DNA from: Acidobacteriota bacterium
Lineage (GTDB): Bacteria; Acidobacteriota; Terriglobia; Versatilivoradales; Versatilivoraceae
Assembly: GCA_028875575.1 (NCBI GenBank)
Contig: JAPPDF010000098.1
Span: forward strand, 1-44,304
Length of the DNA stretch: 44,304 bases
Reading direction: 5' to 3'
This document shows positions 2,126 to 26,860 of this stretch, one piece after another. Numbering within the stretch: position 1 is the first letter of the stretch; each line of letters begins with the position of its first letter. A program made the translations under genes and the position numbers. The notes below the pieces were generated by a model. That model worked only from the letters and a program-made list of their open reading frames with translations. It ran no database searches and was not told where the DNA came from.

Positions 2126-2452
2126 ATGCCGACTGTCTCCGGTGTGTGCCGAATTGCGTCCAAGTTTGCCCCTTTTCGCAGGGGTATTCCAACTTTGCTT
2201 CTGCTGCTTCAAGAGAGTGCCCTGCTGGCTCAAGGGACCGGAACAAGCCCTTGGGTCATGGCCGTCGACGAATTGTCGAAAACGTTTACAGGCCCATTGG
2301 CGAAAGGGCTGTCACTCATCGCCATTGTGGTCGGAGGTTTGATGTTTGCTTACGGTGAAGGTGGATCCAAGCGAGCCATGGCCGGCACCATTTTCGGGCT
2401 GGGCATGGCTCTGGGGGCTGCCAATTTCATGAAGTGGCTATTTGGGGTGTGA
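2126..2452 (+). CDS. virB2: VirB2/TrbC-like type IV secretion pilin
   Basis: A 108-residue protein. ATG 2126 is chosen because CGGAGG at 2114-2119 is well placed; the open frame upstream overlaps the promoter region and the BNR gene. The N-terminal leader ends in a hydrophobic stretch (TLLLLLQ). Two further hydrophobic segments follow, around residues 60-75 (LSLIAIVVGGLMFAYG) and 84-105 (AMAGTIFGLGMALGAANF), which is the classic VirB2/TrbC prepilin layout. The family forms the T4SS pilus subunit after leader removal and insertion in the inner membrane. It is the first gene of the operon, 7 nt before virB3. The family assignment rests on topology and position, as expected for this divergent family. 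Confidence 0.75.
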   Translation: MPTVSGVCRIASKFAPFRRGIPTLLLLLQESALLAQGTGTSPWVMAVDELSKTFTGPLAKGLSLIAIVVGGLMFAYGEGGSKRAMAGTIFGLGMALGAANFMKWLFGV

Positions 2453-2459
2453 CCGCGAA

Positions 2460-2753
2460 ATGACAGGAAAACGCCGATGGAACGGCTATCCCGTCCTCAG
2501 CCGACCGCTGATGATTCTGGGCGTGGAACGGCGCTGGTTTCTCTTGAGCGCGACACTGGCAGTGTCGCTTTGGAATGCCGGTGACTCACTTCTGGCAGCA
2601 ATACTTGTTCTGGCATTGCTGCTTGCTACCGGCCGGCTGGCTTGGAAGCAGGATCCCAATATGCTGAGCCTGTTGCGGGAAGCCGCCCGATCCAAAGTGC
2701 GGTACGACCCCGGCAAATGGGCGGAAACGCCCTGGTACCTGGATCTCCGGTAG
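2460..2753 (+). CDS. virB3: VirB3-like inner-membrane T4SS protein
   Basis: A 97-residue protein starting at ATG 2460, 7 nt after the virB2 stop; an upstream ATG at 2442 would overlap virB2. It has the VirB3/TrbD layout: a short basic N-terminus with a YPVLSRPLMILGVERRW segment, then a hydrophobic hairpin at about 25-60, then a polar tail with a KQDPNML segment. VirB3 proteins associate with the VirB4 ATPase in the inner membrane and help assemble the pilus. The virB4 gene follows after 10 nt, which supports the call. Confidence 0.8.
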   Translation: MTGKRRWNGYPVLSRPLMILGVERRWFLLSATLAVSLWNAGDSLLAAILVLALLLATGRLAWKQDPNMLSLLREAARSKVRYDPGKWAETPWYLDLR

Positions 2754-2763
2754 GTGAGGTCAC

Positions 2764-5184
2764 ATGAACATGAATTCTGAAGCCCGGGACTACGGTAGAT
2801 CGGGAGCCCTTGCCGAAGAGATCCCCTATTGGGGGTGGCTGCCGGACGGAACAACCTGTCTCACTCGAGCGGGCGAACTCCTGGCCGCCGGCCGGTTGGC
2901 GCCTATGGGGATCGATGGACGGCGGCCCGAACACTTGGATCGAGTGCTGGATCGCTGGCAGCGGTTGCTGTCCGACATCGGTCCTCGCACGCGGCTTTAC
3001 TTCTATCTCCTTCGCCGGCCCAGTCGGTGGAATGAGATCCCGCAGCATGGTGGCGACGTCAGCAAGCTTTCCCAGCATCAAAGGCGCCTGTTCCTGGCAG
3101 GTCGGATTCGGGAGATGCAGACCTTTCTGGTGTGGTGCCATGACCCACAGTTGAGGTCTGCGGTCAATCGGGAGTCCGGCTGGACGTCCTTCGCACGCAG
3201 TTGGCTGGCTCGACAGGGCGGAATTCCCGAAACGGCGTACCTTTATGCAGCCATTCAAACCGCAGCGGATGGTTTTCGCCAGCTTGTGCAAGCCCATCGG
3301 GCCCTGGTGGAGGATCTCACTCCCATTGAATTGCTGACTCCCAAGTCTGGATCGTGCCTGTTGAGCGAGTTGATCAACCGTCCCGGCACTTCCTGGGATG
3401 GAGCCACCGGAAGCGGGCTCAACTGGCGCCTGGCCCTTTCCGAGCTGGAGGCGGAACGCCGCCATCTTCGCCTGGATGGCGAGCCGGTCATTCTCTACTC
3501 CCTTCTGTCCCCACCTGGCCAAGCCTCTGCGAATCTGCTCAACGATCTCTATTGCCTGGATGCCACTCTGACGGTTTCCCTGGAATGGAGGCCTCTGGAG
3601 CTGGACCAGGCTCGGAAGAGAATTCGATCGGCTCGCCGACACTATTTCGCCAAGCGCTACTCCCTTGCAGCTCACATGCAGGAGAAGGAAGGAACGGATA
3701 CGGCAATGGTGGACTCGGCTGCCGAGGTCGAGTCCGAGCGGCTCGGGGAAGCGCTGGTGGAACTCGAAGCCGACGGGATTGCTTATGGTGAAATGGCGCT
3801 CTGTATTGCATTGCACGGAGAACTGGGAGAGATCGAACGCCTGGACGGCGATGTGCGACGTATCTTTTCCTCTCACGACGCCAAAGTCATCCGGGAGGGA
3901 TACGGACAGTTGCCCGCCTGGTTCTGCCGCTGGCCGGCCCAGCCCAGGAAGCGTCAGGTTCGCACCCTGTTCGGTTCCGCCGGCCTGGCCGCCTGCCTGG
4001 CTCCCATCTTCGGTCCTCCGGTCGGATACTCGACCAGCAGGCACTTGCGGCGTCCCGCATTGGCGGTCCTGGAAACCCGCTGGCAAACCCCCTTTCACTA
4101 CGACCTCTTTGACGGCGACGTGGGACACACGCTGGTGCTCGGGGCGACCGGAAGCGGCAAGTCGTTCCTGCTGAATTTCCTGCTTGTCTCAGCCCTTCAG
4201 TACCAACCCAGGGTTCTGATACTCGACCTGGGTGGATCCTACCGTTGGCTCACGGCCTTTCTGGGGGGAAGCTACCTGGAGATGGCTCCCTCCGGAGCAC
4301 TCAATCCTGCCTTTCAATTAAGGCCGTTCTCCCTACCTCGCACCGAGCGATCCTTTCAATTCCTCACCGGTTGGGTGGTTCGCCTGTTGCGACTGGGCGG
4401 GTGGACGGTGGAAGGCGACGACACCAATGAAATTCGCAGCCGCGTTCAAGACCTCTATCTCTTCTCTCCCGATCGGCGCACATTGAGCGCCCTGGTGCGA
4501 GCCCTTCCCAGCAAGATGTGGCCGGCAATGTCGCGCTGGCATGGCGATGGAGCCTGGGCAAGCTATTTCGACCACTCCGCCGCTGGGGCGGATCTCGATC
4601 TGAAAGACTGGCAGGTTATCGATCTGGCTGGAGCGGCTGAACATGAGGACCTCTGCGAAGCAGCCCTGTTTTACCTGCTCGAACGCCTGCGCCTGCAGTT
4701 GGAAGACCCTGCCGACATCGCCCGGGTGAAGCTCATGGTAGTGGACGAGGCTTGGCGCTATCTGCGCGATCCTGCCGTCGTGGCTTACCTGGCCGAATCT
4801 GCGAAGACCTGGCGCAAACGCAACGCTGCCCTGGTCATGGCCACCCAGTCAGCAGCGGATATCACCGGAACCGCTGGTGCCGAACCGCTCCTGGAGTCGA
4901 TGCCGACCAAGATATTTCTGGCCAACCCGGATTTGCCGACTCAGGCCGGCCGGATGTTTCAGCTCAATGAAGGGGAATTTGAACTTGTCAGAGAATTGGT
5001 TCCCAAGCGGGAGCTCTACCTGCGGCGTCCGAGTTTGACCGGAGTACTGCGGCTGAACGTGGATCCAAAGAGCTACTGGCTATATACCTCCTCGCCGCCT
5101 GATGCGGAAAGGCGGAGCGATTTCATCCAGCGATACGGGTTGAAACAGGGCATTGAACGGTTGTCCAAGGGAGTGGCGGGATGA
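2764..5184 (+). CDS. virB4: VirB4-family T4SS ATPase
   Basis: An 806-residue protein, about the usual VirB4 length. The C-terminal ATPase half carries Walker A GATGSGKS (460-467) and Walker B LMVVDEAW (about 657-664), followed by a helicase-like MATQSAAD segment typical of VirB4/TraC. The N-terminal half has the CagE/TrbE-type region. VirB4 is the hexameric inner-membrane ATPase that powers pilus biogenesis and substrate transfer. GGTGAGGT just upstream serves as the ribosome binding site; ATG 2770 is an alternative start. The stop overlaps the virB9 start by 4 nt, so the two are translationally coupled. Confidence 0.95.
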   Translation: MNMNSEARDYGRSGALAEEIPYWGWLPDGTTCLTRAGELLAAGRLAPMGIDGRRPEHLDRVLDRWQRLLSDIGPRTRLYFYLLRRPSRWNEIPQHGGDVSKLSQHQRRLFLAGRIREMQTFLVWCHDPQLRSAVNRESGWTSFARSWLARQGGIPETAYLYAAIQTAADGFRQLVQAHRALVEDLTPIELLTPKSGSCLLSELINRPGTSWDGATGSGLNWRLALSELEAERRHLRLDGEPVILYSLLSPPGQASANLLNDLYCLDATLTVSLEWRPLELDQARKRIRSARRHYFAKRYSLAAHMQEKEGTDTAMVDSAAEVESERLGEALVELEADGIAYGEMALCIALHGELGEIERLDGDVRRIFSSHDAKVIREGYGQLPAWFCRWPAQPRKRQVRTLFGSAGLAACLAPIFGPPVGYSTSRHLRRPALAVLETRWQTPFHYDLFDGDVGHTLVLGATGSGKSFLLNFLLVSALQYQPRVLILDLGGSYRWLTAFLGGSYLEMAPSGALNPAFQLRPFSLPRTERSFQFLTGWVVRLLRLGGWTVEGDDTNEIRSRVQDLYLFSPDRRTLSALVRALPSKMWPAMSRWHGDGAWASYFDHSAAGADLDLKDWQVIDLAGAAEHEDLCEAALFYLLERLRLQLEDPADIARVKLMVVDEAWRYLRDPAVVAYLAESAKTWRKRNAALVMATQSAADITGTAGAEPLLESMPTKIFLANPDLPTQAGRMFQLNEGEFELVRELVPKRELYLRRPSLTGVLRLNVDPKSYWLYTSSPPDAERRSDFIQRYGLKQGIERLSKGVAG

Positions 5185-6038
5185 ACGCAGCACTACCCAC
5201 GGGAATTCCGTTTCCCACCATCGCGTTCCTGGTGGTCTGCTGGACTGTGCTGTCAGGAGTCGCGACCGGAAGTGGCGTGCTTCGAGTCAATGAGAGGCAG
5301 GATCAGATTATCGAGATCCGGGCCAAGGTTCGACATACGACTGTGCTGGTTCTCCCGAAGACTGAAAATATCCTGGACTTCGTGGTTGGCGACTCCGACT
5401 ACTGGCACCTTAGCGGGGCAGCCAACCTGGCATACCTCAAACCCATCGCCACGGGTGTGCGCACCAACGTGACGCTGGTATGCGCCAGCGGTCGGATCTA
5501 CACCTTTCTGGCGAGTGAAGGCGCCGAGTCCCCTCACCTCGTGGTTCGAATCGAACGGACCGGAGGTGGGTACGGCCATGCCGCCGAGTCGCCGCACAAG
5601 CCGGCATTCGTCTCGCGAAGCATGGTGGAGGGATACCAATACGCGGCACGGCAAGCAAACGAGGCCGCGCTGGCCGCCAAGAGCGATGCGGAGGCCCGGG
5701 TCAACGAGGCAAAGCAGGAGGCCGCCAAGACCATCGATCAGTTTCGCTCCAGCTATCCGGCTCGCTTGAAGTGGCCGTACCGTCTCGAAAAAAGGGCATT
5801 TGAGCGACCGTTTCTGGTCGAAGCCCTTTGGCACGACGGTCAGTTTACCTATCTGCGCTGTCAGGCGCAGGAATCCCCGGCGCTCTACGAGTTGAAGGAT
5901 GGATCGCCCAACCTGGTGTCCTATGACCTCAGCCAGGATGGACTCTATGTGGTACGGCATGTCTTGGGCGACGGCTGGCTTGCCATTGGGAACAATAAGG
6001 CCAAGTGGCGGTTTGTGGATGCAGGACTACAACCCTAG
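5181..6038 (+). CDS. virB9: VirB9/TrbG-like outer-membrane complex protein
   Basis: A 285-residue protein with a hydrophobic N-terminal export signal (FLVVCWTVLSGVA). The N-terminal VirB9 domain has a KTENILDFVVGDSDYW core. A charged, alanine-rich helix lies at about 150-185. The C-terminal domain has FTYLRCQ and GLYVVRHV, typical of VirB9/CagX. In the family, VirB9 with VirB7 and VirB10 builds the periplasm-spanning core complex at the outer membrane. No VirB7 lipoprotein gene was recognised nearby. The start overlaps the virB4 stop (ATGA) and virB10 begins 4 nt after the stop. Confidence 0.9.
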   Translation: MNAALPTGIPFPTIAFLVVCWTVLSGVATGSGVLRVNERQDQIIEIRAKVRHTTVLVLPKTENILDFVVGDSDYWHLSGAANLAYLKPIATGVRTNVTLVCASGRIYTFLASEGAESPHLVVRIERTGGGYGHAAESPHKPAFVSRSMVEGYQYAARQANEAALAAKSDAEARVNEAKQEAAKTIDQFRSSYPARLKWPYRLEKRAFERPFLVEALWHDGQFTYLRCQAQESPALYELKDGSPNLVSYDLSQDGLYVVRHVLGDGWLAIGNNKAKWRFVDAGLQP

Positions 6039-6042
6039 CCCC

Positions 6043-7374
6043 ATGATTCATTGGAAACAAATGCACTCCAAACCGGCCGGAGCACTCCCCGGCAACCTGA
6101 TGACCCGCATCGGCGTTGGAGCCATCGCCGTGCTTTGCGGGGCGCTGATGCTCACCCATTCCTTCACCAAGACGAACAGGGCTCCCGCTGCAAGTTCCGA
6201 TGCGATCCCACAACCCGCAAATCAGGGCGTTCAACGACACCTCAGTGCTCTCATCGACAGAGAAACCGAACGGCAGGAGCAGCGGCTTGCCGCCCGGGCC
6301 TTGGACAGACTGCCTTGGCCAACGCCGGCGTCAGCACCCTCCGATGAACTGAATCAGTCCGCAATGGTCCCGGTTGTCCGGGAAGCTGGGGGGGTGCTTG
6401 TGAACTCGGATCCGGGACCGAGCGAGGACGAGATCAAGCTGCGTGAGAGTCTGCGTCTGGAGGATATCGAGAGGCGAGCCAGGTCTCTTCGTTCCCGACC
6501 GTTGGTCCAAACCTACCGATCCGATCGGGGTACGGAGGAGATATCCCTCAAGCCGGAGCCTGGTTCGGCTGCATTCCAGCCGGAGGAGGCTTCAAGGGTG
6601 CCCTCTACTGCGGAATCGGAACTGCGGGATGTCGTGGCCAACCTCAGTGCCGCGCTGAACTCCTCCAGCTCCGATACGAATGGGCTGTCCGGCGCCCTGA
6701 AGAGACCTGCCCCTTCACGTCCTTCCGTGGAGGTTTCCAAACAGTCCTCCGCGGACCCGGCACGCCCTTCCAAACTGGTCCAGTCCTCGGACCCGCCGGG
6801 TTGGGAGCGGATTTATCAGGGGGCCTTTCTGGAGGGCGTCCTTTTGACGCAACTTTCAGGAGACTTCCCCGGACCGGTACTGGCCATGGTATCGGTGCCG
6901 TTTTACTCTCAAGATCGCCAGCGGGTCCTGGTGCCGCGGGGAGCGCGGGCGGTCGGCACGGCGCGGGAGGTCACTCACAGCGACCAGCAACGGCTGGCCG
7001 TGACCTTCGACCGATTGTTTCTCCCCGACGGGCGATGGATATCCCTTGAATTCCGGGGACTCAGCCAAGTGGGGGAGTCGGCGCTCAAGGACCAGGTCGA
7101 CCGTCACTATGTTTCGACGTTTGCGGCCGCCGGAGCCGTCGGCGTGCTGTCGGGACTCACCCTGCAGGGAAGCACTCCCTACGGCGGGGGGATCCAGGGA
7201 CCTCGAGCCGGGTCGGGCCAGGGGTTTGGCTTGGCCGCAACCCAGATCCTGCAGCGCTTTCTCAATCGTCTACCCACCATAACCATCCGGGCCGGTCATC
7301 GGTTGCGAATCTGGTTCACGTCCGATGTGCTTGTGCCTAAATCAAGACCCAAGAAAGGAAGAGACCAGCCATGA
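6043..7374 (+). CDS. virB10: VirB10/TrbI-like core complex protein
   Basis: A protein of about 443 residues from ATG 6043; in-frame ATGs at 6019 and 6061 are alternatives and none has a strong Shine-Dalgarno. One transmembrane helix near the N-terminus (GVGAIAVLCGALMLTH) is followed by a long proline- and serine-rich periplasmic region. The conserved C-terminal TrbI domain includes GAFLEGVLLTQLSGDFPGPV, VLVPRGARAVGTA and FDRLFLPDGRW. VirB10 spans both membranes, senses ATPase activity and gates the outer-membrane pore. The stop overlaps the virB5 start by 4 nt. Confidence 0.93.
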   Translation: MIHWKQMHSKPAGALPGNLMTRIGVGAIAVLCGALMLTHSFTKTNRAPAASSDAIPQPANQGVQRHLSALIDRETERQEQRLAARALDRLPWPTPASAPSDELNQSAMVPVVREAGGVLVNSDPGPSEDEIKLRESLRLEDIERRARSLRSRPLVQTYRSDRGTEEISLKPEPGSAAFQPEEASRVPSTAESELRDVVANLSAALNSSSSDTNGLSGALKRPAPSRPSVEVSKQSSADPARPSKLVQSSDPPGWERIYQGAFLEGVLLTQLSGDFPGPVLAMVSVPFYSQDRQRVLVPRGARAVGTAREVTHSDQQRLAVTFDRLFLPDGRWISLEFRGLSQVGESALKDQVDRHYVSTFAAAGAVGVLSGLTLQGSTPYGGGIQGPRAGSGQGFGLAATQILQRFLNRLPTITIRAGHRLRIWFTSDVLVPKSRPKKGRDQP

Positions 7375-8279
7375 AGAAGAGAATCGTTTCCCTCGTGCTG
7401 CTCGTCAGCCTCTGCGCCGCTCCCCTCTACGGCATCGACCCCGTTGCGGCCGCCCAAAGAGCCCAGATGATCGTGAACCAGCTTCTACAAAGGCTGAACG
7501 AGAAAATGCAGATCGCCAACCAAGTCACTCAAATCAGGCAATTTACCGAACAGCTTACCAAGACCAGGGAACAGATCCTCCACATGAAGGAGGCTGCCTT
7601 GGGGCAAATCGGAGCGCTTGAGGAGTCTTTCGCGGAGTTGGTCGCGGGACCCACCAACCTGGTAGTCGATACTATGCAGTGGCAGACGGAATTTACAGGG
7701 TCAGCCAGAGAGTTGGTTGGCGCTGCCAAACGGCTGGCCTCCGGCCAACCGCTGCGGGAAAGCTGGAGAAAAATCCTGAATCAAATTCAAACCAACCAGG
7801 CAGACATCGTTGAACTGTTGAGCCATCTGGATCCCCAGGTGGCGGCCCGGGTATCGGATCACTACCTTCAGGACCGGGAAGAAGCCGACAATCGACGTGT
7901 GACCACCTACCTGGTTGACGACTCGGCGACGGCATTGATCGAAACTGCAGCGAGCGCGCGAGAGTCTCTCCAGAAACTCCGTTCCAACAGCAATGTCTCG
8001 GACACCGCCTTGGCTCAAGCTCAGGTGACGGGTCTGGCCACCCAGGGAGAACTCCTATCCGCCATGGCGCAACTGATGGCTTTCGAGGCAGCACGGGGAA
8101 CCGCTCGAGACTACCAGGATGAACTCAAGCGGCGGCAGCAATGGAAGCAGTGGGAGCGGCGTCAAGAGGCAGGGAAGGTGCTGTTCGAAAAGCAACAGGC
8201 GGACATTGCCGCGAGCGCCGATGGACTACGGGAAGGCTTGGTCTACCGGATTCCGTCCGCCTTTGGTGATTCACATTAA
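7371..8279 (+). CDS. virB5: VirB5/TrbJ-like periplasmic T4SS protein
   Basis: A 302-residue protein with a clean signal peptide (MKKRIVSLVLLVSLCAAPLYG). The mature part is almost entirely helical: amphipathic coiled-coil at about 40-80 rich in Q, N and K (QIANQVTQIRQFTEQLTKTR), and a charged C-terminal helix around 250-275. This fits TrbJ/VirB5, the minor pilus or adhesin component. Sequence conservation in this family is low, so the call leans on position and fold type. The TAA stop (8277-8279) lies inside the TTAA that borders an inserted repeat element, so the stop is probably the original one retained at the insertion site. Confidence 0.78.
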   Translation: MKKRIVSLVLLVSLCAAPLYGIDPVAAAQRAQMIVNQLLQRLNEKMQIANQVTQIRQFTEQLTKTREQILHMKEAALGQIGALEESFAELVAGPTNLVVDTMQWQTEFTGSARELVGAAKRLASGQPLRESWRKILNQIQTNQADIVELLSHLDPQVAARVSDHYLQDREEADNRRVTTYLVDDSATALIETAASARESLQKLRSNSNVSDTALAQAQVTGLATQGELLSAMAQLMAFEAARGTARDYQDELKRRQQWKQWERRQEAGKVLFEKQQADIAASADGLREGLVYRIPSAFGDSH

Positions 8280-8524
8280 CCCGCATTTCTCACCAGGGGG
8301 CGTGATCATGGCGCAGGCATTTTCCCCTCAGCGCGTGCTCGGGAGCGAAGAGCGTAGCGGTCACTACGGTCGAGCGAGCATGGATGCGCTGAGGGGAAAA
8401 GGACAAGCCAGGGCGCGCCCAGCACCGTGTGTAGGCTGAAGACTCCATACAAAGCGCCACAAGATGTTAAACACGAATACGTTACTACCGTAGGCTCAGC
8501 GGCCTGGTGAGATATGCGGGTTAA
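8276..8524. mobile_element. MITE-like element between TTAA copies
   Basis: An element of 241 bp (8280-8520) is flanked by TTAA at 8276-8279 and 8521-8524. Its ends are 18-bp inverted repeats with one mismatch: CCCGCATTTCTCACCAGG (8280-8297) and CCTGGTGAGATATGCGGG (8503-8520). An inner inverted pair, TTTTCCCCTCAGCGC near 8320 and GCGCTGAGGGGAAAA near 8387-8401, gives a second hairpin. No transposase is encoded. Deleting the element with one TTAA leaves virB5 stop, 12 nt, virB6 start, like the other tight junctions of this operon. That is direct evidence of insertion. TTAA followed by CCC resembles the end layout of piggyBac-type elements; the transposase family is inference. Confidence 0.85.
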
Positions 8525-8536
8525 GCCCCCGGTCCC

Positions 8537-9529
8537 ATGCAACTCCGTCCGCCACAATCGATAGATCCGAATGTTCCGGCGATAATCCCCGAGGAACAGC
8601 AGCAGAATTTCAAGGCGTTCCTCGACAGGGTGCTGGATGACGTTGTGGGTGCGGCTTCACCCGGCATTATCCAGGCGGGTGACGAACTGTGGCTGGCAAT
8701 AGCCACCATTGCAGTGACCTGGGCAGGATTGCAGGTTGCCTTCAGCGGGTCCTTCAATTCCTGGGAGATCGTGAAGCTCATCTTCGTTCTAAGTGTTCCC
8801 AAAACCATGCTGCACTACTACAGCCAGGCTCTTCCTCACACCAACTCTACCTTTCCGCAGATCGTGGTGGAACAGGGGATCTGGCTGCAAAACATGTTTG
8901 TTTCCGACATCGTCTCCGGCATGCACACGGAACTCAACACCCTGTTTACCGCGCAGGGCAACGCTATACTGGCGGCCTGGCAGCGGATCGACTTCGAAGA
9001 CCTGTCACCCTCTACGGCATATGCCGCAGTCACACAGACAGTCCCGTCGATAGCGTTCGTATTTTTCGGCCTGCTCCTGCTGGCCCTGTTCTTCATCACC
9101 TATGCCCAGGTTCTCTGGGGGCACCTGGCCGTATCCATCTCTATCCTGCTCGGCCCCATCTTCATCCCCTGGCTGGTATTCGAGCCAATGGCCTTTCTGT
9201 TCTGGGGTTGGTTTCGGACGGTGCTTGTCTATTCTCTCTACGCTGCAATCGCCGGAGCCATCCTCCGCATATGGGGCGGCGTGGGATTGGGTTACGTCAC
9301 CACGTTGAGTCATTCGCCGCCCCTGGACAACTTTGCCGCGGTCGTTTACTGGTCGCTGATTCTCCTTCCTCTCTGCGCGGCGGGAATCCTGGCGGCCTGC
9401 AAAGTGGGAGAGATGGCTTCGCTACTGATTTCAGGAGCCGGCTTGGCTGGATCCGGCGGTGTTTCCTTGGCTGTCCATACGGCTGGTAAAGCTGCCATGA
9501 GTATATCGAGAGCTGTTTCCAGGCGATGA
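8537..9529 (+). CDS. virB6: VirB6/TrbL-like polytopic T4SS channel protein
   Basis: A 330-residue protein with multiple membrane segments: about 50-70 (LWLAIATIAVTWAGLQVAF), 170-215 (FGLLLLALFFITYAQ, then ISILLGPIFIPWLVF), 218-250 and 265-295. There is a long periplasmic loop in the middle. This is the TrbL/VirB6 layout, the inner-membrane channel component. ATG 8537 is only 12 nt downstream of the repeat element, and no convincing Shine-Dalgarno is visible there. Translation was probably coupled to virB5 before the insertion and may now be weaker. The stop overlaps the virB8 start by 4 nt. Confidence 0.88.
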   Translation: MQLRPPQSIDPNVPAIIPEEQQQNFKAFLDRVLDDVVGAASPGIIQAGDELWLAIATIAVTWAGLQVAFSGSFNSWEIVKLIFVLSVPKTMLHYYSQALPHTNSTFPQIVVEQGIWLQNMFVSDIVSGMHTELNTLFTAQGNAILAAWQRIDFEDLSPSTAYAAVTQTVPSIAFVFFGLLLLALFFITYAQVLWGHLAVSISILLGPIFIPWLVFEPMAFLFWGWFRTVLVYSLYAAIAGAILRIWGGVGLGYVTTLSHSPPLDNFAAVVYWSLILLPLCAAGILAACKVGEMASLLISGAGLAGSGGVSLAVHTAGKAAMSISRAVSRR

Positions 9530-10185
9530 TGTCCACAAAAGACACAGACCGTGAATACGCCGAAATCTGGGGTGAAACCCTCAACTCCAATCGTCACCTC
9601 CGCCTTCTCTCCATGGGGCTTGGCGGACTTACCCTCTTGTTGGCAGTCGTAGTAGTGCGCCTCGGTTTTCAGGAGATGCCCCGCCCGATCGTGGTACGTG
9701 TGGACGAGGTGGGTCGGGCCGAAGCCCTACAATACAAGGCCGTCGAAGCCAAATCCGACCCCCTCGATCCCACCACCAAGTACTTTTTGAATCGCTTCAT
9801 CCACGACCATTACTCTCGTCGGGCCGCCACGGTACAAGAACGCTGGACCCGCAGTCTGCGCTTTCTCACCACCGACTTGGCCAATGCCGCATTCCAGGAC
9901 GAAAACAGGAAAATTGCCCTGGTGGCGGCTCGAGTGGCTCGGGAGGAGACCAAAGTCGAGAACATCGTGTTGCGTATCCATGCCAATCGGTCGCCGCCCC
10001 ATGGAGCGACCGCCGACTTTGAAATGGTGCGCATCCGGCAGGAGAAAGAAGTAGGGCGGGATAAGTGGTCTCTTTCCCTGCAGTTTTCCTATATCACCCG
10101 AATCCCTCCTGATTTGATGGTTCACAATCCGATGGGTATCGTCATCACCTACCTGCAGACGGATCGGGCTCTGGTATCGGAATAA
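9526..10185 (+). CDS. virB8: VirB8/TrbF-like T4SS assembly factor
   Basis: A 219-residue bitopic protein with a short cytoplasmic N-terminus, one membrane helix at about 27-47 (LLSMGLGGLTLLLAVVVVRL) and a periplasmic NTF2-like domain. The C-terminal segment NPMGIVITYLQTDRALV matches the conserved end of VirB8/TrbF domains. VirB8 dimers nucleate T4SS assembly in the inner membrane. ATG 9526 overlaps the virB6 TGA; ATG 9529 is an adjacent alternative. The virB11 gene begins 28 nt downstream. Confidence 0.9.
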   Translation: MMSTKDTDREYAEIWGETLNSNRHLRLLSMGLGGLTLLLAVVVVRLGFQEMPRPIVVRVDEVGRAEALQYKAVEAKSDPLDPTTKYFLNRFIHDHYSRRAATVQERWTRSLRFLTTDLANAAFQDENRKIALVAARVAREETKVENIVLRIHANRSPPHGATADFEMVRIRQEKEVGRDKWSLSLQFSYITRIPPDLMVHNPMGIVITYLQTDRALVSE

Positions 10186-10213
10186 CAACGGATCAACCTG
10201 GGGATGCACCACC

Positions 10214-11188
10214 ATGAGTGCCAGTGGAATCGAGATGCTCAAGCCCTTGTTGCCGGGACTGGAGAGGGTGCTTGAAGATCAACAAGTGAGCGAAATCATG
10301 ATTAACGGGCCGGACAACGTCTGGATCGAGAAGAACGGGAAACTGGATCCCTTGTCAGCGCCGGATCTCGACTCCAAGGCTTTGGGGCGTGCCGCCATCC
10401 ATATTGCTCGCCCCCTGGGCCTGGATCCTGTGCACTCGCCCCTGGTGGATGCCCGTCTGGACGACGGCTCCCGTGTGGCAATCTGCATGCCGCCGGCCAG
10501 TCCGATGGTGGCGATCACGGTAAGACGCTTCGGGGGCCGGTCTTTCTCGACGGACGACTTGGTGCGCCAAGGTGTATTGGCGAAAGAGATCCTGAATGCA
10601 GCCGCAGACACGCTGCGGAAAGGCCAGAACATCCTTGTTTCAGGAGGAACCGGGAGCGGAAAAACGACCCTGCTCAATGCACTGATCGAATTGTTGCCCG
10701 AGACGGAACGCATTATTACCATCGAAGATGTGCTGGAATTGAACATTAAACGCGGCAACTGCCTCCGATTCGAGGCTCGTGGACTCAAGGACACGGTGAC
10801 CATTCGAAACCTGGTGCGACATGCGTTGCGCCACCGTCCGGATCATATCGTCATGGGTGAGGTTCGCGGTGGCGAAGCCGCGGACCTGCTGCAAGCCCTC
10901 AATACCGGCCACGGTGGCTCGTTGACAACTATCCATGCCAATAGCGCTCAAACGGCCTTGGCGAGGCTTGCCAGTTGCGCCGCCCAGGCAAGCAGTCGGC
11001 TTCCCTGGAGCGTGACCTGTCGTAGCATCGTTGACGGCGTGCGCATGGTGGTGCAAATGACGCGGCGGCGCGGCTTGCGGTTTGCGGAAGAGGCACTCTT
11101 TGTAGAGGGTTACGATGCTGCTACCGACTGCTGGGACGTGGAGACCATTTGGAGAGGACAGTCGCTGGCAGTCAGAAATGCGGGCTAG
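10214..11188 (+). CDS. virB11: VirB11-family traffic ATPase
   Basis: A 324-residue protein. Walker A GGTGSGKT is at 144-151, the Walker B/Asp-box region [13 protein letters not shown] at about 214-226, and a His box [12 protein letters not shown] at about 231-242. These are diagnostic for VirB11/TrbB/PulE secretion ATPases. The N-terminal domain contains [15 protein letters not shown], typical of the TrbB subgroup. It is a cytosolic hexamer that switches the T4SS between pilus assembly and transfer. It is the last gene of the operon; no virD4 or relaxase gene follows. Confidence 0.95.
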
Positions 11189-11594: not shown

Positions 11595-14500
11595 ATGTCG
11601 GCATATTCCCCACTCTTCTCCTCTTTCCTATGGTTACGATTTTTGTTGGCGCTGTTTCTCGTGACCGTTCTCTTCCCAGCAGACAGTAACGCTCAGACCC
11701 CCTCGATATCTCTCACCTGTTCCCCCACCATAATTGTTGCAGGCCAAGACGTAACTATCACTGCAACCATTTCCCCCAGCACCGCAACTCCCGACTCGGA
11801 CCTGACCGTAGCGGTTACCAACATCGGGTACGGCATAACTCACACGAACCCTGTTATCGCAGCCGGCGAGTACCAGGGTACGGGAACCGCCACCGACACA
11901 GGGGGGGCTCGGGGGCGAAACATATCTGTTGGCTTCCACGCTCCCGCCGGTTACAGCCACGGAGGGGGGTGCAGTTTTACCGTGGCCGGCGGCGGACCTC
12001 CTCCCCCTCCGCCTCCGGCAACGTCGGTCACCCTGTCGGTTGCCCCGGCCAGCTTTGCCGAGGACGACTCAGCAACCGCCGTTACCGTCACGGCGACCGC
12101 AAGTGGCACACTCGCGTCCGCGACGATTGCTCTTTCTCTGGGAGGCACGGCCAGCTGGGCCGATTACACCGTGACCGGCACGCAGTTGATCCAAATCACC
12201 AACTCCAGGACCGGCTCGACGGTGCTGATCTTCACACCAATCCAAGACGTAGTCTACGAGGGGGATGAGACCGTTACCATCTCCGGAACTGCGTCCGGAT
12301 TGTCGGTGACCCGGGCCGTGCTGAACCTGGTCGATGACGAGGCGGTGCCGACGGTCACGCTGTCGGTGAATCCGCGGAGCTTCGCCGAGGACGATTCGGC
12401 GACCGCGGTCACGGTGACGGCCACCTTGAGCGGGACGATGAGCGCAGAGGCGAGGGTGGCGTTGGCGCTGGCAGGCACAGCCACGTCGGCGGATTACGGG
12501 GTGACGGGGTCGCAGTCGATCACAGTAGCGGCCCTGGTCAGCTCGAACACCACAACCTTGACTTTCGCGCCGGTCCAGGATGTGGTCTATGAGGGCGACG
12601 AGACGATCGAGGTGAGCGGCGCGGCCACAGGCCTGGTCGTGATCTCGGCCACCCTCACGCTGACCGACGACGAGGCGGTGCCCACCGTCGCGTTGTCCGT
12701 CAACCCGGCGAACTTTGCCGAAGACGACCCGGCAACCCCGGTTACGGTGACGGCGACCTTGAGCGGGGCGATAAGCACGCAGACGACGGTTGGGCTGACC
12801 CTTGCAGGCACTGCCACGTCGGCCGATTACGCCGTAGCCGGAACGCCGGCGATTACGGTCGCGGCGCTTGCGATGAGCAACACGACGGTGCTGACCCTCA
12901 CGCCCGTTCAGGACCTGGTCTACGAAGGAGACGAGACGATCACGGTGAGCGGCACCGTTGCGGGGCTCGTGGTGACCGGAACCACCCTCACGCTGACCGA
13001 CAATGAGCCGGTGCCCACCGTCACCCTGTCGGTTGCCCCGGCCAGCTTCGCCGAGGACGACTCAGCAACCGCCGTTTCCGTCACGGCGAGCGCAAGTGGC
13101 ACACTCGCGTCCGCGACGATTGCTCTTTCTCTGGGAGGCACGGCCAGCTGGGCCGATTACACCGTGACCGGCACGCAGTTGATCCAAATCACCAACTCCA
13201 GGACCGGCTCGACGGTGCTGATCTTCACACCAATCCAAGACGTAGTCTACGAGGGGGATGAGACCGTTACCATCTCCGGAACTGCGTCCGGATTGTCGGT
13301 GACCCGGGCCGTGCTGAACCTGGTCGATGACGAGGCGGTGCCGACGGTCACGCTGTCGGTGAATCCGCGGAGCTTCGCCGAGGACGATTCGGCGACCGCG
13401 GTCACGGTGACGGCCACCTTGAGCGGGACGATGAGCGCAGAGGCGAGGGTGGCGTTGGCGCTGGCAGGCACAGCCACGTCGGCGGATTACGGGGTGGCGG
13501 GGTCGCAGTCGATCACGGTCGCGGCGCTTGCGAAAGCGGGCGCCACCATACTGACTTTCACGGCCCGAGACGACCCGGTCGATGAGACCGACGAGACGAT
13601 CGAGATTACCGGCACCTCGGGCGGCTTGTCGGTCACCGGTACGGTGCTGACCCTCCTCGACAACGACGAAGTGGGACTGATTCTGTCCGAGATGTCATTG
13701 ACGGTCGATGAGGCCGGGGCCACGGCCACCTATACGGTGCAGCTTGCGACATTGCCCGCCGACCCCGTTACCGTCAATCTCACCAGCCAGGACAGCGCCA
13801 TTGCGACCGTTTCCCCGGAGACGCTTCTCTTCAATCCCTCCCAGTGGAACCGGGCCCGCACGATAACGGTGAGCGGCGTCAACGACGACGTGGACAACCT
13901 TGAGGACAAGCGCGAGGTGACCATTGACCACCAAGCCTCGGGGGGGGACTACCTGGCGGTCACAGCCACCCTTGCGGTCGTCGTGCGGGACGACGACCGC
14001 GCCGGTGTCCGCCTCATGCCCGAGGAGCTTCAGATCGATGAGGGCGATACAGGTTCCTACACCCTCGAGCTGACTTCCGAGCCTCTCGCGGTCGTGGTCC
14101 TGAACCTCACACGCCTCGGTGACGGCGTTGACGAGTTGGACTGGGATCCGAAGCGGCTGACCTTTGCGCCTGAGAATTGGAATCAGCCGCAAACGGTCAC
14201 CGTGACCGTCGCCGAGGACATCGACACCGCCGATGAGGTGGCGCTGCTGCGCCACACCTCCACCAGCCAAGACCCCAGATACGACCCTATCGGGATCGAT
14301 GACCTTGAGATCCTCATCGATGACGACGACACTCCGGTCACCTCCGCCACCCTGACTCTCAGCGACCAGGAAATCGCCGAATACGAGCCTGCGGCCGCGG
14401 TAGCGGTCATCGCCAGGCTGGATGCCGTTACCACCACTCCCCGCATCATCAGCCTGTCGCTGGCAGGCACGGCCTCAGCAAGAGACTATGAGGTCGGCGG

Positions 14501-17500
14501 CGAGCTCGCCATCACCGTCGATCCCGGCGACGACACCGGCCAGACCCTGCTCACTTTCGTTCCCATCGATGACCCCCTGGTCGAGGGGGAGGAGACCATC
14601 GTCGTCAACGGCGCTTCCCCCGGATTGACCGTTACTCCGACCGTCCTCACTCTCGTTGACGACGATACCGGTGGCGGCGAGCCGATCGGCAACCTATCGG
14701 TCGATATCGATCGCCTCACTGAATCCGCCCGCGACACTCTCATCACCGTCACCCTCACCCTGCGCGAGGGTCTTGCCTTCGACGAGTTGCGCACCTTTAA
14801 TGTCGCCGTGCGCGAAAGCGGCCAACCGGATGCCGTCGATTTTCAGCCTGTACTGCCTCTCTCCATAACCCTCTTATCCAACAGCTCACTCGGCCATTCC
14901 ACCTTCCTTCTTCGCCCCGACAACGACCTCGTCGATGAGATCGACGAGACCATCGCTATCGCTGTTGTCGACAGTTCTCTCCCCGTCAACCCTGCCGAGA
15001 TCATCCTCGTGGACGACGATGCGCCGCCTACCGGGATTTCGCTTTCCGTGGATGATTCTGACATCACGGAGGGAGACCCCCCTACAGACATCACTCTCAC
15101 CGCCACAGTCGACGGCGGCACTGCCTATGCCCGTACGATCGCCCTCTCCCTCTCCCTGGGCGGAACAGCCATAGAGGGAGAGGAGGGAGACTATACCGTC
15201 TCCGGAATCCTCGGCGTCACCATCCCGGCCGGCCAGCATTTCGCAACCACCGTCCTCACCTTCATGCCCGTGGACGACAGCCGGGACGAGCTTCATGAAA
15301 CGATCGACGTTACCGGGAGCACTCCGGGAGGACTTCCCGTCACTCCGGCCTCATTGACGTTGCTGGATAACGACGAGTCCCTGCTCAGCCTGCGGGCTGA
15401 GCCGCGGAGCATCCAGGAAGGCTCTGGGCCGGTGGCGGTCACTCTTACCGCTGCCATACGTAGCGGCACGCCGTACAGCCAGCCTCTTTGGGTTTCACTG
15501 CAGTTGGGCGGAACGGCTCTCAGAGCCGCTGACTACACCGTGTCCGGCTCCTTGACCGTTTCCATCCCCGCCGGCGAGCTGGAAGCCTCTACTTCTCTAT
15601 CCCTGGCTCCGATCGACGACACCTTGGACGAACCTGAGGAAACCATCGAGATCGTCGGAAGCGCCAGCGTCGGCTTCTCCAACACCGCCACTGTCCTCCT
15701 GATCGACAATGATATTCCCCCGACTCGGATCTACCTGACGGCTTCCCCGGCCAGTCTCAGCGAAGCTGCTCCCCCCACACGTGTGTTTCTGGAAGCCCGC
15801 CTTGAAGGCGATACCGCTTTTTCTCGCGACACTAGAATTGCTCTTGAGCTTGCCGGGTCCGCCGTTGCTACGGTCGACTACGAGCTCGACGGCCTCGCCG
15901 ATCCTTTCGTGATCCCTGCCGGCCGGTTAAGCGCCACCCGCGAGCTCACCCTCACTCCCATTGACAACCCTCATCCTGAGGGGGCTGAGCAGATCCTCAT
16001 CGGTGGAACCGCCCTCGTGCCAGTGGTTTCGGCTGAGATAACCCTTTTGGATGACGACGGCGAGGACCTCGACATAAGCTTCAGCCATTCCCACTACACC
16101 GCCAACGAGTACGGATCCCCAGCCGAGGTTACTATTACGGTGACCCCGGCCGCCGATCGTTCCGAGCTGATTTCCCTGTCCGTTGTCCACCTGGGCGGAG
16201 CTACGATCGACGATTACCAGGGATTACCCCTGGAAATTGCCATTGACGTCGGCGACCAACTTCTCACTTTTACTATTGAGGCCTTACCGGACCAGGTCTA
16301 CGAATCCGGAGAAAAGATCCAGCTTCGCCTGGATTCACCCTCTACCAGGCTTACCTTCAACCCTATACCTTCAGCCACCGTCGCCTTTGTCGAACAGCGT
16401 TCCATCGACGAGTTTTCCAGCGAAGCCCAAACCGTCCTGGCGCTTTCGGCCCGTGCCTGGTCCGACAGCATCCAGTCCACTCTCGAGGAACGATTCAGCC
16501 GCGCCCGCCAGACCGAGCAGTGGGGCGGCTGGCAGGCCGACTACCAGGAGGCTTCCCCGGCCGTTTCACCCATACCCTCAACTACCCGCTTGAACTCGCC
16601 TTCTTCCATTGCCGATCGCATCATTCCCGGGGACTGGCTCGCCACCTGGAGACAACGCAACGAGCGGCGCAACATGGGCGTGATCCAACCCAGGCTGTCG
16701 CTCAGCAAGCTCCTCGCCAGGATCAAGGGCTGGAGGCCCGTCCTCTGGGCCGAAGGCAACACCCATCATTTCTCCGGCAATCTTCGCACCCTCGACTACC
16801 AAGGAGGCTTCCAGGCTGCCCATGTCGGCCTCGATCTGCGCTCCGGCAAGAAGACCCTCCTCGGTGCTTCCCTCATGCGCGGCCGATCCCTGATCGATTA
16901 CTCCGATGGAGCGGTCCTCGACGGCGAAACCCAGGCCACCCTCTACTCCGTCCATCCCTACTTGCACGTCCAGGCCACCGATCGCATCGCCCTTTGGGCG
17001 CTCGGCGGCTTCGCCACCGGCCCCGTCGCTTTCCGCGAACTCGACCGCGACCACGATATCCGCGCCTTCGGCCGTCTCGCCGGGGGAGGCGCTCGTTTTC
17101 TCGCCAATAGCTGGGAACGCCGCGAACTCGCCGTTCGCACCGATGGCGACGTCGCCTGGATCGGCGCAGACCTCCAGGAGGCCTCCGCTACCATCGGCGG
17201 CCTCGCAGGCCGTCTCCGCCTCCTGGCTGAAATCACCCAGACCCTGCGTCCTTTCGGTCAGACCGTTGTTGTTACGGGTGAAGCCGGCGGCCGCCTCGAC
17301 CGCGGCGCGGCCCACCGCGGCGCCGCGCTTGAAGCTGCAGGCCGCATCAGCTGGCGCAATCCCGAAAAGGGCCTCGACCTGTCAGCCCACGGCCAATCCC
17401 TTCTCTGGCATCAATCTTCCTTCCGCATTGGGGGTGCCGGCATCCAGGCCGGCTGGGACCCCGGAGCCGAAAAACGGGGCCTAGCCGTCCACTTCGCTTC

Positions 17501-17690
17501 CGGCCGAGGTTCCCGCGCGGGTAGAACACGCCTGTTCCATGATCCCATCGACCGCCTCCTCCAACCAGGAGCCGCTCTTGACACCGAGATCGAGCTCGGC
17601 TACGGAACAGGCGTTCGCAATCGTCTGCTGACGCTGACGTTTCGGCTCCGGGGTCTTTCCGGTTGGACCGCCGCCGTCGACCTGCGCTGA
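11595..17690 (+). CDS. Giant Calx-beta repeat surface protein with C-terminal beta-barrel-like domain
   Basis: A 2,031-residue protein starting at ATG 11595 with GGAGG at about 11586. It has a signal peptide (LLALFLVTVLFPADSNA, cut near residue 33), an N-terminal Ig-like domain to about 130, and a short polyproline linker. About 13 Calx-beta repeats follow (roughly 145-1605), recognisable by recurring LSVxPxSFAEDD starts and VYEGDET calcium-loop segments. The last 320-420 residues contain alternating hydrophobic strands like an autotransporter or outer-membrane barrel (LWALGGFATGPVAF, LLTLTFRLRGLSG). The end lacks the usual terminal aromatic residue, so the barrel is an inference. There is no RTX GGxGxDxxx repeat. 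It is probably a calcium-binding adhesin. It lies directly downstream of the T4SS operon on the same strand. Confidence 0.85.
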   Translation: MSAYSPLFSSFLWLRFLLALFLVTVLFPADSNAQTPSISLTCSPTIIVAGQDVTITATISPSTATPDSDLTVAVTNIGYGITHTNPVIAAGEYQGTGTATDTGGARGRNISVGFHAPAGYSHGGGCSFTVAGGGPPPPPPPATSVTLSVAPASFAEDDSATAVTVTATASGTLASATIALSLGGTASWADYTVTGTQLIQITNSRTGSTVLIFTPIQDVVYEGDETVTISGTASGLSVTRAVLNLVDDEAVPTVTLSVNPRSFAEDDSATAVTVTATLSGTMSAEARVALALAGTATSADYGVTGSQSITVAALVSSNTTTLTFAPVQDVVYEGDETIEVSGAATGLVVISATLTLTDDEAVPTVALSVNPANFAEDDPATPVTVTATLSGAISTQTTVGLTLAGTATSADYAVAGTPAITVAALAMSNTTVLTLTPVQDLVYEGDETITVSGTVAGLVVTGTTLTLTDNEPVPTVTLSVAPASFAEDDSATAVSVTASASGTLASATIALSLGGTASWADYTVTGTQLIQITNSRTGSTVLIFTPIQDVVYEGDETVTISGTASGLSVTRAVLNLVDDEAVPTVTLSVNPRSFAEDDSATAVTVTATLSGTMSAEARVALALAGTATSADYGVAGSQSITVAALAKAGATILTFTARDDPVDETDETIEITGTSGGLSVTGTVLTLLDNDEVGLILSEMSLTVDEAGATATYTVQLATLPADPVTVNLTSQDSAIATVSPETLLFNPSQWNRARTITVSGVNDDVDNLEDKREVTIDHQASGGDYLAVTATLAVVVRDDDRAGVRLMPEELQIDEGDTGSYTLELTSEPLAVVVLNLTRLGDGVDELDWDPKRLTFAPENWNQPQTVTVTVAEDIDTADEVALLRHTSTSQDPRYDPIGIDDLEILIDDDDTPVTSATLTLSDQEIAEYEPAAAVAVIARLDAVTTTPRIISLSLAGTASARDYEVGGELAITVDPGDDTGQTLLTFVPIDDPLVEGEETIVVNGASPGLTVTPTVLTLVDDDTGGGEPIGNLSVDIDRLTESARDTLITVTLTLREGLAFDELRTFNVAVRESGQPDAVDFQPVLPLSITLLSNSSLGHSTFLLRPDNDLVDEIDETIAIAVVDSSLPVNPAEIILVDDDAPPTGISLSVDDSDITEGDPPTDITLTATVDGGTAYARTIALSLSLGGTAIEGEEGDYTVSGILGVTIPAGQHFATTVLTFMPVDDSRDELHETIDVTGSTPGGLPVTPASLTLLDNDESLLSLRAEPRSIQEGSGPVAVTLTAAIRSGTPYSQPLWVSLQLGGTALRAADYTVSGSLTVSIPAGELEASTSLSLAPIDDTLDEPEETIEIVGSASVGFSNTATVLLIDNDIPPTRIYLTASPASLSEAAPPTRVFLEARLEGDTAFSRDTRIALELAGSAVATVDYELDGLADPFVIPAGRLSATRELTLTPIDNPHPEGAEQILIGGTALVPVVSAEITLLDDDGEDLDISFSHSHYTANEYGSPAEVTITVTPAADRSELISLSVVHLGGATIDDYQGLPLEIAIDVGDQLLTFTIEALPDQVYESGEKIQLRLDSPSTRLTFNPIPSATVAFVEQRSIDEFSSEAQTVLALSARAWSDSIQSTLEERFSRARQTEQWGGWQADYQEASPAVSPIPSTTRLNSPSSIADRIIPGDWLATWRQRNERRNMGVIQPRLSLSKLLARIKGWRPVLWAEGNTHHFSGNLRTLDYQGGFQAAHVGLDLRSGKKTLLGASLMRGRSLIDYSDGAVLDGETQATLYSVHPYLHVQATDRIALWALGGFATGPVAFRELDRDHDIRAFGRLAGGGARFLANSWERRELAVRTDGDVAWIGADLQEASATIGGLAGRLRLLAEITQTLRPFGQTVVVTGEAGGRLDRGAAHRGAALEAAGRISWRNPEKGLDLSAHGQSLLWHQSSFRIGGAGIQAGWDPGAEKRGLAVHFASGRGSRAGRTRLFHDPIDRLLQPGAALDTEIELGYGTGVRNRLLTLTFRLRGLSGWTAAVDLR
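12027..12522 (+). repeat. Internal Calx-beta duplication, copy A
   Basis: About 495 bp (Calx-beta repeats 1 and 2) recur 993 bp downstream at 13020-13515. Only about three substitutions occur in the first 80 bp and then more than 350 bp appear identical, including silent positions. That implies a recent duplication or gene conversion inside the gene. Confidence 0.85.
13020..13515 (+). repeat. Internal Calx-beta duplication, copy B
   Basis: Second copy of 12027-12522, offset 993 bp (331 codons), encoding Calx-beta repeats 4 and 5. At its 3' end the sequence switches to match repeat 3 (ATTACGGTCGCGGCGCTTGC near 12851) rather than copy A. This mosaic boundary points to recombination among repeats. 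Confidence 0.85.
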
Positions 17691-25750: not shown

Positions 25751-25771
25751 TCGGTGAGATATGCGGGTTGA
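25751..25771. repeat. Solo end of the TTAA-type repeat
   Basis: GGTGAGATATGCGGGTT (25753-25769) is a 17-base perfect match to the right end of the element at 8503-8523. It is followed by GAG rather than AAG, so the TTAA is degraded to TTGA. It lies about 25 nt after the Nramp-like stop. No partner end lies within 300 bp. Confidence 0.7.
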
Positions 25772-26809: not shown

Positions 26810-26860
26810 GGGAGAAATGCCTGTGCCATGATCACACCCCTGGTGAGAAATGCGGGTTAA
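26800..26860. repeat. Half copy of the TTAA-type repeat between convergent genes
   Basis: On the minus strand, TTAA (26857-26860) is followed by CCCGCATTTCTCACCAGG, identical to the left end at 8280-8297. The similarity continues through a GTGATCATGGC-type segment to CCTCAGCGC, roughly 55 of 61 positions by eye. It spans the whole 47-nt spacer between the lipoprotein and ABC-F genes. Both stops (TGA 26807-26809 and TAA 26857-26859) lie in it. The other half of the element is absent. Confidence 0.75.

Follow-up and report, generated by a model that had tools for sequence, protein, structure and literature searches.

A MITE with IS1380-type ends and a conserved covarying hairpin core in a type IV secretion operon of Candidatus Versatilivorator

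The window analyzed here is a 44,304-nucleotide stretch of DNA from an Acidobacteriota bacterium of the genus Candidatus Versatilivorator (GenBank assembly GCA_028875575.1, contig JAPPDF010000098.1). A preliminary description, made from the letters of the window, had placed a 241-bp insert between virB5 and virB6 of a type IV secretion system (T4SS) operon, and the insert was indeed located between the virB5 stop codon (TAA, 8277-8279) and the virB6 start codon (ATG, 8537). Neighboring genes encode a TraG/VirB4-like ATPase, CagX, TrbI, VirB8, a VirB11-type ATPase, and TrbC, and the type IV secretion context therefore holds. The insert occupies what had been called the only large gap of a tightly packed operon; this gap is 257 nt, compared to -140 to +28 nt for the other gaps in the run from 2442 to 11188. 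Downstream of the virB11-type gene, a frame of 2,031 amino acids (11595-17690) with a Calx-beta domain codes for a large surface-like protein adjoining the T4SS.

Positions 8276 to 8524 consist of TTAA, 241 bp, and TTAA, as claimed, so that the element proper is 8280-8520. The inverted arms (8276-8297 and 8503-8524) are 22 nt long and 95% complementary when TTAA is counted in, and the 18-bp ends with 17 matching positions that had been described are recovered once TTAA is excluded. There was no standout reading frame inside the 241 bp. The features of the window that are considered here are as follows.

7371-8279, + strand: gene in the virB5 position, 302 amino acids, without a Pfam match
8276-8279: left copy of the target site (TTAA), in which TAA serves as stop codon of virB5; the empty site of genome G006 has a single TTAA
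8280-8297, + strand: left terminal inverted repeat CCCGCATTTCTCACCAGG, an IS1380-type end
8295-8423, + strand: conserved folded core (covariance model R1, 39 pairs)
8320-8334, + strand: 5' arm of the long stem, TTTTCCCCTCAGCGC
8335-8385, + strand: apical core segment, paired in part, sequence strongly conserved
8386-8400, + strand: 3' arm of the long stem, GCGCTGAGGGGAAAA
8431-8495, + strand: hypervariable segment, mostly unpaired (54% mean pairwise identity versus 83-90% elsewhere)
8503-8520, - strand: right terminal inverted repeat CCCGCATATCTCACCAGG
8521-8524: right target-site copy TTAA
8537-9529, + strand: virB6 (TrbL/VirB6, PF04610)
25753-25771, - strand: isolated end-like sequence TCAACCCGCATATCTCACC with 1 mismatch, perhaps a remnant
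26810-26860, - strand: truncated remnant at TTAA, the left ~50 bp of the element (from end matches and comparison by eye with 8276-8330)

One of the two truncated remnants in the window, ending at TTAA, sits directly after the stop codon of a gene.

Orthologous T4SS operons without the insert, which the preliminary description had proposed to look for, were found in four genomes (G001, G003, G004, and G006), each with a contiguous virB5-virB6 junction. The empty site that had been reconstructed from the single sequence has a natural counterpart, in that the G006 junction (...TTCACATTAAGCCTCCGGTCCCATG, with exactly one TTAA) aligned ungapped to the window minus the insert and one TTAA, and the junction in one insert-free species of the genus (CACATTAAGCC) was identical to the reconstruction; such empty sites are compatible with excision as well as with the element never having been inserted. 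In G005, which is 99% identical, the virB5-virB6 site is occupied and contig ends fall within the element; contig C234 of this genome (7,782 bp) corresponds to JAPVWS010000309.1 of Ca. V. vitaminiformans (100% over the query). The T4SS insertion is one recent copy, common to two close species. A regulatory RNA or attenuator native to the operon, with no insertion involved, would account for the position between two operon genes along the direction of transcription and for strong folding (z = -7.5), but it is refuted by the empty sites with their clean 4-bp-target junctions in the four orthologous operons and is difficult to reconcile with about 100 copies at unrelated sites. We consider that reading to have practically no chance of being correct.

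Sequences matching the ends occurred 115 times in the genome of the window, compared to none for a reversed control; BLAST within the same genome (G000) yielded at least 40 scored copies, and the core had 94 matches there (about 100 copies in the genome), numbers that are far beyond chance. Copies were 239 to 244 bp long and were present in all six other members of the genus that were searched, and there was no DNA match to the element in 54 genomes outside the genus. Across 90 copies, identity was 83 to 90% in the ends and core. Internally deleted forms of about 126 to 162 bp with the same ends, in which most of the folded core is missing, were also observed (G001:C1:3799955-3800088, 4115245-4115412, and 892783-892914; G000:C51:340-474). 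The sequences flanking copy L005 (G000:C50, about 13813-14283; CACGAAGGGGCACGAAGGACGACGAAGGG..., AGCCTATTGCAAGATTCGGCAGC...) are themselves an abundant dispersed repeat of the genus with more than 100 matches.

The preliminary description had treated TTAA as the defining target, a claim that did not survive comparison of the copies. Identical 4-bp flanks were present at 35 of 101 end pairs spaced 100 to 300 bp apart, and these exact duplications were CTAG in 23 cases, TTAA in 11, and CTGG in 1. Flanking TTAA does recur elsewhere, at 10 further exactly flanked copies. Rather than strict TTAA, the element targets YTAR, in most cases CTAG, and these 4 bp become duplicated. The base beside the left end was a purine in all 89 full-length copies. 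The flanks of most older copies no longer match exactly. Among 55 full-length copies with decayed duplications, losses of T at -3 and A at +3 far outnumbered those of the inner bases (A at -2, T at +2). Ungapped empty sites exactly 4 bp shorter were recovered at L004, L007, L010, and L011, and likewise, with 4 bp fewer, at copies with diverged flanks (L022, L025, L027, and others); in most aligned relatives of other insertion sites the element plus exactly 4 bp was absent. A duplication-free mode of insertion for copies with unlike flanks was rejected, because the empty sites of relatives are still 4 bp shorter, and decay of the flanks is the preferred explanation.

Similarity to elements with an identified transposase was found in the IS1380 family. 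Full-length IS1380 elements of 1.63 to 1.86 kb, gathered by scanning named genomes with a piece of transposase from the genus, came from Pseudomonadota, Planctomycetota, Acidobacteriota, Verrucomicrobiota, and others, and have the same ends as the window element (CCCGCATTTCTCAC(C)) and YTAR flanks. Most of their ends are CCCGCATTTCTCAC or CCCGGATTTCTCAC, and their duplicated flanks are CTAG, TTAG, CTAA, or TTAA, rarely CTAC or ATAG. Reading frames in the five elements that were checked were 423 to 474 amino acids long, and the four scanned against the IS1380 model NF033539 scored 370 to 407 bits (cutoff, 180). Broken IS1380 copies, several of them bounded by ends of the same type, were present in G000, G004, and G005. 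An intact IS1380 transposase gene was not found in the element-bearing genomes searched, a set without G002 and G003. Draft assemblies often lose repeated elements.

A piggyBac-type element, which would target TTAA strictly and excise seamlessly, had been the first suggestion. The ends begin with CCC, TTAA stands on both sides of the window copy and of 10 other exactly flanked copies, and IS1380 has been taken as prokaryotic outgroup to the piggyBac transposases (PMC10813416). Nevertheless, strict use of TTAA does not describe a family in which CTAG accounts for 23 of the 35 exact duplications, twice as many as TTAA, and the transposases encoded by full-length elements that have these ends are of the IS1380 family, so that the piggyBac label is very improbable. 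The IS1380-like relationship, which had been half guessed, is borne out by the same ends and the same 4-bp duplications as in full-length IS1380. The element was assigned to IS1380 because ends and target agree; the insert is very probably a MITE that owes its movement to a transposase of the IS1380 family acting in trans, with a YTAR target and a 4-bp duplication. In the mechanism that we propose from these sequence comparisons, the IS1380-family DDE transposase, which we infer to be the mover, would recognize CCCGCATTTCTCACC ends, act in trans on the gene-less MITE, and insert it at YTAR (CTAG, TTAA, and variants), duplicating those 4 bp.

The other part of the earlier suggestion, that the element is a nonautonomous derivative, was half right. 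The transposon is nonautonomous, but its core is unlike IS1380: no similarity of the core to IS1380 was detected, with only the ~20-bp ends matching IS remnants, and the core model scored no better than chance at 62 IS1380 loci. Origin of the core from an internally deleted IS1380 was rejected, similarity being limited to the ends.

No copy lay inside a gene (0 of 95), with genes called by a simple codon-usage caller, and orientation to neighboring genes was even (29 sense and 24 antisense in tandem settings). Among 100 genes ending toward a copy within 300 nt, 39 had the stop codon exactly within the duplication. Since TAA or TAG is part of YTAR, many of the surviving insertions lie exactly on stop codons, the window copy among them, with the upstream gene left intact. 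CTAG is rare in the window, where base composition predicts 149 sites and 10 are present. At least two of these 10 (6035 and 11185) serve as stop codons, which thus offer the CTAG target a natural refuge.

The element is strongly folded. Compared with shuffled sequences, the fold of the window copy is far more stable (z = -7.5 as RNA and -7.7 as DNA), and in 42 copies the core pairing was retained in 97.9% of cells versus 39 to 56% when the pairing was slid. In an alignment of 26 copies from three families, which was fitted to the covariance model, paired cells amounted to 96.7% versus at most 57% when slid, and 20 of the 39 pairs had changes on both sides compared to 8.7 ± 1.7 in shuffles.

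The covariance model located the core in 7 of 396 genomes, that of the window included. No relative was found with it elsewhere in the same family, and the others belong to more distant Acidobacteriota: G082, G106, G349, and G373 (family f28), G205 (f55), and, weakly, G290 (f79). Copies in f28 have the same ends as the window MITE, are mostly 237 to 241 bp long, and in several cases are flanked by CTAG or TTAA. Those in f55 (240 to 241 bp; one with CTAG flanks) have CCTGAATATTGCACCAG ends and stem arms of differing sequence in which pairing is kept, whereas the apical sequence is much the same; the apical motif GTGCTCG.GA..GA is retained in other families. The weak relative L394 (G290:C9:135368-135495; 41 bits), with a different inverted repeat (GGCTGGAGCCGTCAA ... 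TTGACGGCTCCAGCC), is possibly the core with other ends. One Rfam match in L394, to cspA, falls outside the part that matches the core and was set aside. Two copies of ~270 bp in G106, L399 (C87:19952-20079) and L404 (C97:26934-27061), have extra bases (GGAGCGGCGGCTTTTAGCCGCCGACTC...) in the 5' part of the core and intact ends.

Covariation of this kind might be functionless. The MITE is a long near-palindrome, and hairpin-directed template switching at replication could re-perfect imperfect palindromes regardless of any role for the fold; copies lie either way round to genes, and host transcripts are thus unlikely to be the selective agent. Parsimony counts in copies from the genus, made with a corrected register since one RNAalifold stem (columns 46-50) was one base off, gave 68 changes from Watson-Crick to G.U versus 21 to A.C on the + strand, whereas changes in unpaired columns were symmetric. 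Repair of palindromes should be strand-blind and would not explain such a bias, and we regard template switching as a rather doubtful account of the core. Selection on readthrough transcripts was rejected as the source of the bias: copies show no preferred orientation to genes, and antisense copies have an excess of G.U as well (20 to 8), which makes readthrough transcripts unlikely. Part of the G.U bias may come from the structure having been picked on the + strand; for pairs common to the folds of both strands, the ratio of G.U to A.C was 16 to 6 (P = 0.05).

Alternatively, selection may act on the core as a structured module, either RNA or single-stranded DNA, which would work as a small RNA or promote mobility through, for instance, the binding of a protein. 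Two-sided changes in 20 of 39 pairs, a consensus fold of -75 kcal/mol on the + strand versus -32 kcal/mol on the - strand, and an apical sequence that is retained where stems and ends differ would all fit such a module. It is harder to square with the finding of no promoter-like site in the region of the element that was scanned and no Rfam family matching the element, and the covariation alignment had been fitted to the model. This explanation has a somewhat better claim than template switching, at less than even odds. The + strand fold, as RNA or single-stranded DNA, could then matter for spread or tolerance of the element. A broader proposal, which is tentative and rather unlikely as a whole, is that the core is a strand-specific selected fold that has spread across Acidobacteriota families in ends of the IS1380 type and later acquired diverged ones; the core would then be a mobile structured element itself, rather than a decayed IS.

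The original observation is real and mostly ordinary, and the covarying hairpin of the core is its only surprising part. What is new is that the ~130-nt core is not derived from IS1380, that it forms a conserved hairpin with strong covariation, G.U-biased on one strand, and that it is also present in further families of Acidobacteriota, in one case between ends of another sequence. Through these results a family of bacterial MITEs is firmly connected with IS1380, whose members are the relatives of piggyBac in prokaryotes, and the 4-bp target there is seen to be wider (YTAR, mainly CTAG), with insertions on stop codons being tolerated. The conserved covarying core raises the question of whether some MITEs spread because the folded strand does something.

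As in MITEs as they have been defined (PMC4133298), the element is short (about 30 to 300 bp for the class), multicopy, and without coding capacity; there are target duplications (35 exact) and natural empty sites 4 bp shorter, and the terminal inverted repeats equal those of full-length IS1380 elements. A limited literature search found no published IS1380 MITE. Members of the IS1380 family (NF033539, PF13701) share the terminal repeats CCCGCATTTCTCAC(C) and 4-bp YTAR duplications with the MITE. In contrast to autonomous members, which encode a DDE transposase, the MITE has no transposase gene and is 241 bp rather than 1.63 to 1.86 kb long, with a core unlike that of the sampled IS1380 elements. 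IS1247, of the same family, makes a 5-bp duplication (PMC3281130). Correia/NEMIS, ERIC, and TIMEs (PMC4133298) are, like this MITE, short, multicopy, gene-less, intergenic, and foldable, with IS-like inverted ends and target duplication; IS1380-type ends, the YTAR target, and conservation of the core across several families within a single phylum set it apart from other bacterial MITEs. REPINs, which are associated with RAYT transposases, are likewise extragenic mobile hairpins with compensatory changes (PMC3116915). REPINs have a linked RAYT Y1 HUH transposase and no target duplication, whereas this element has 4-bp duplications, DDE-type ends, a length of about 240 bp, and a two-part core plus a hypervariable segment. 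With the piggyBac superfamily it shares a 4-bp target with a central TA, and the piggyBac transposase is distantly related to that of IS1380; however, piggyBac targets TTAA strictly (PMC7351741), whereas CTAG prevails here.
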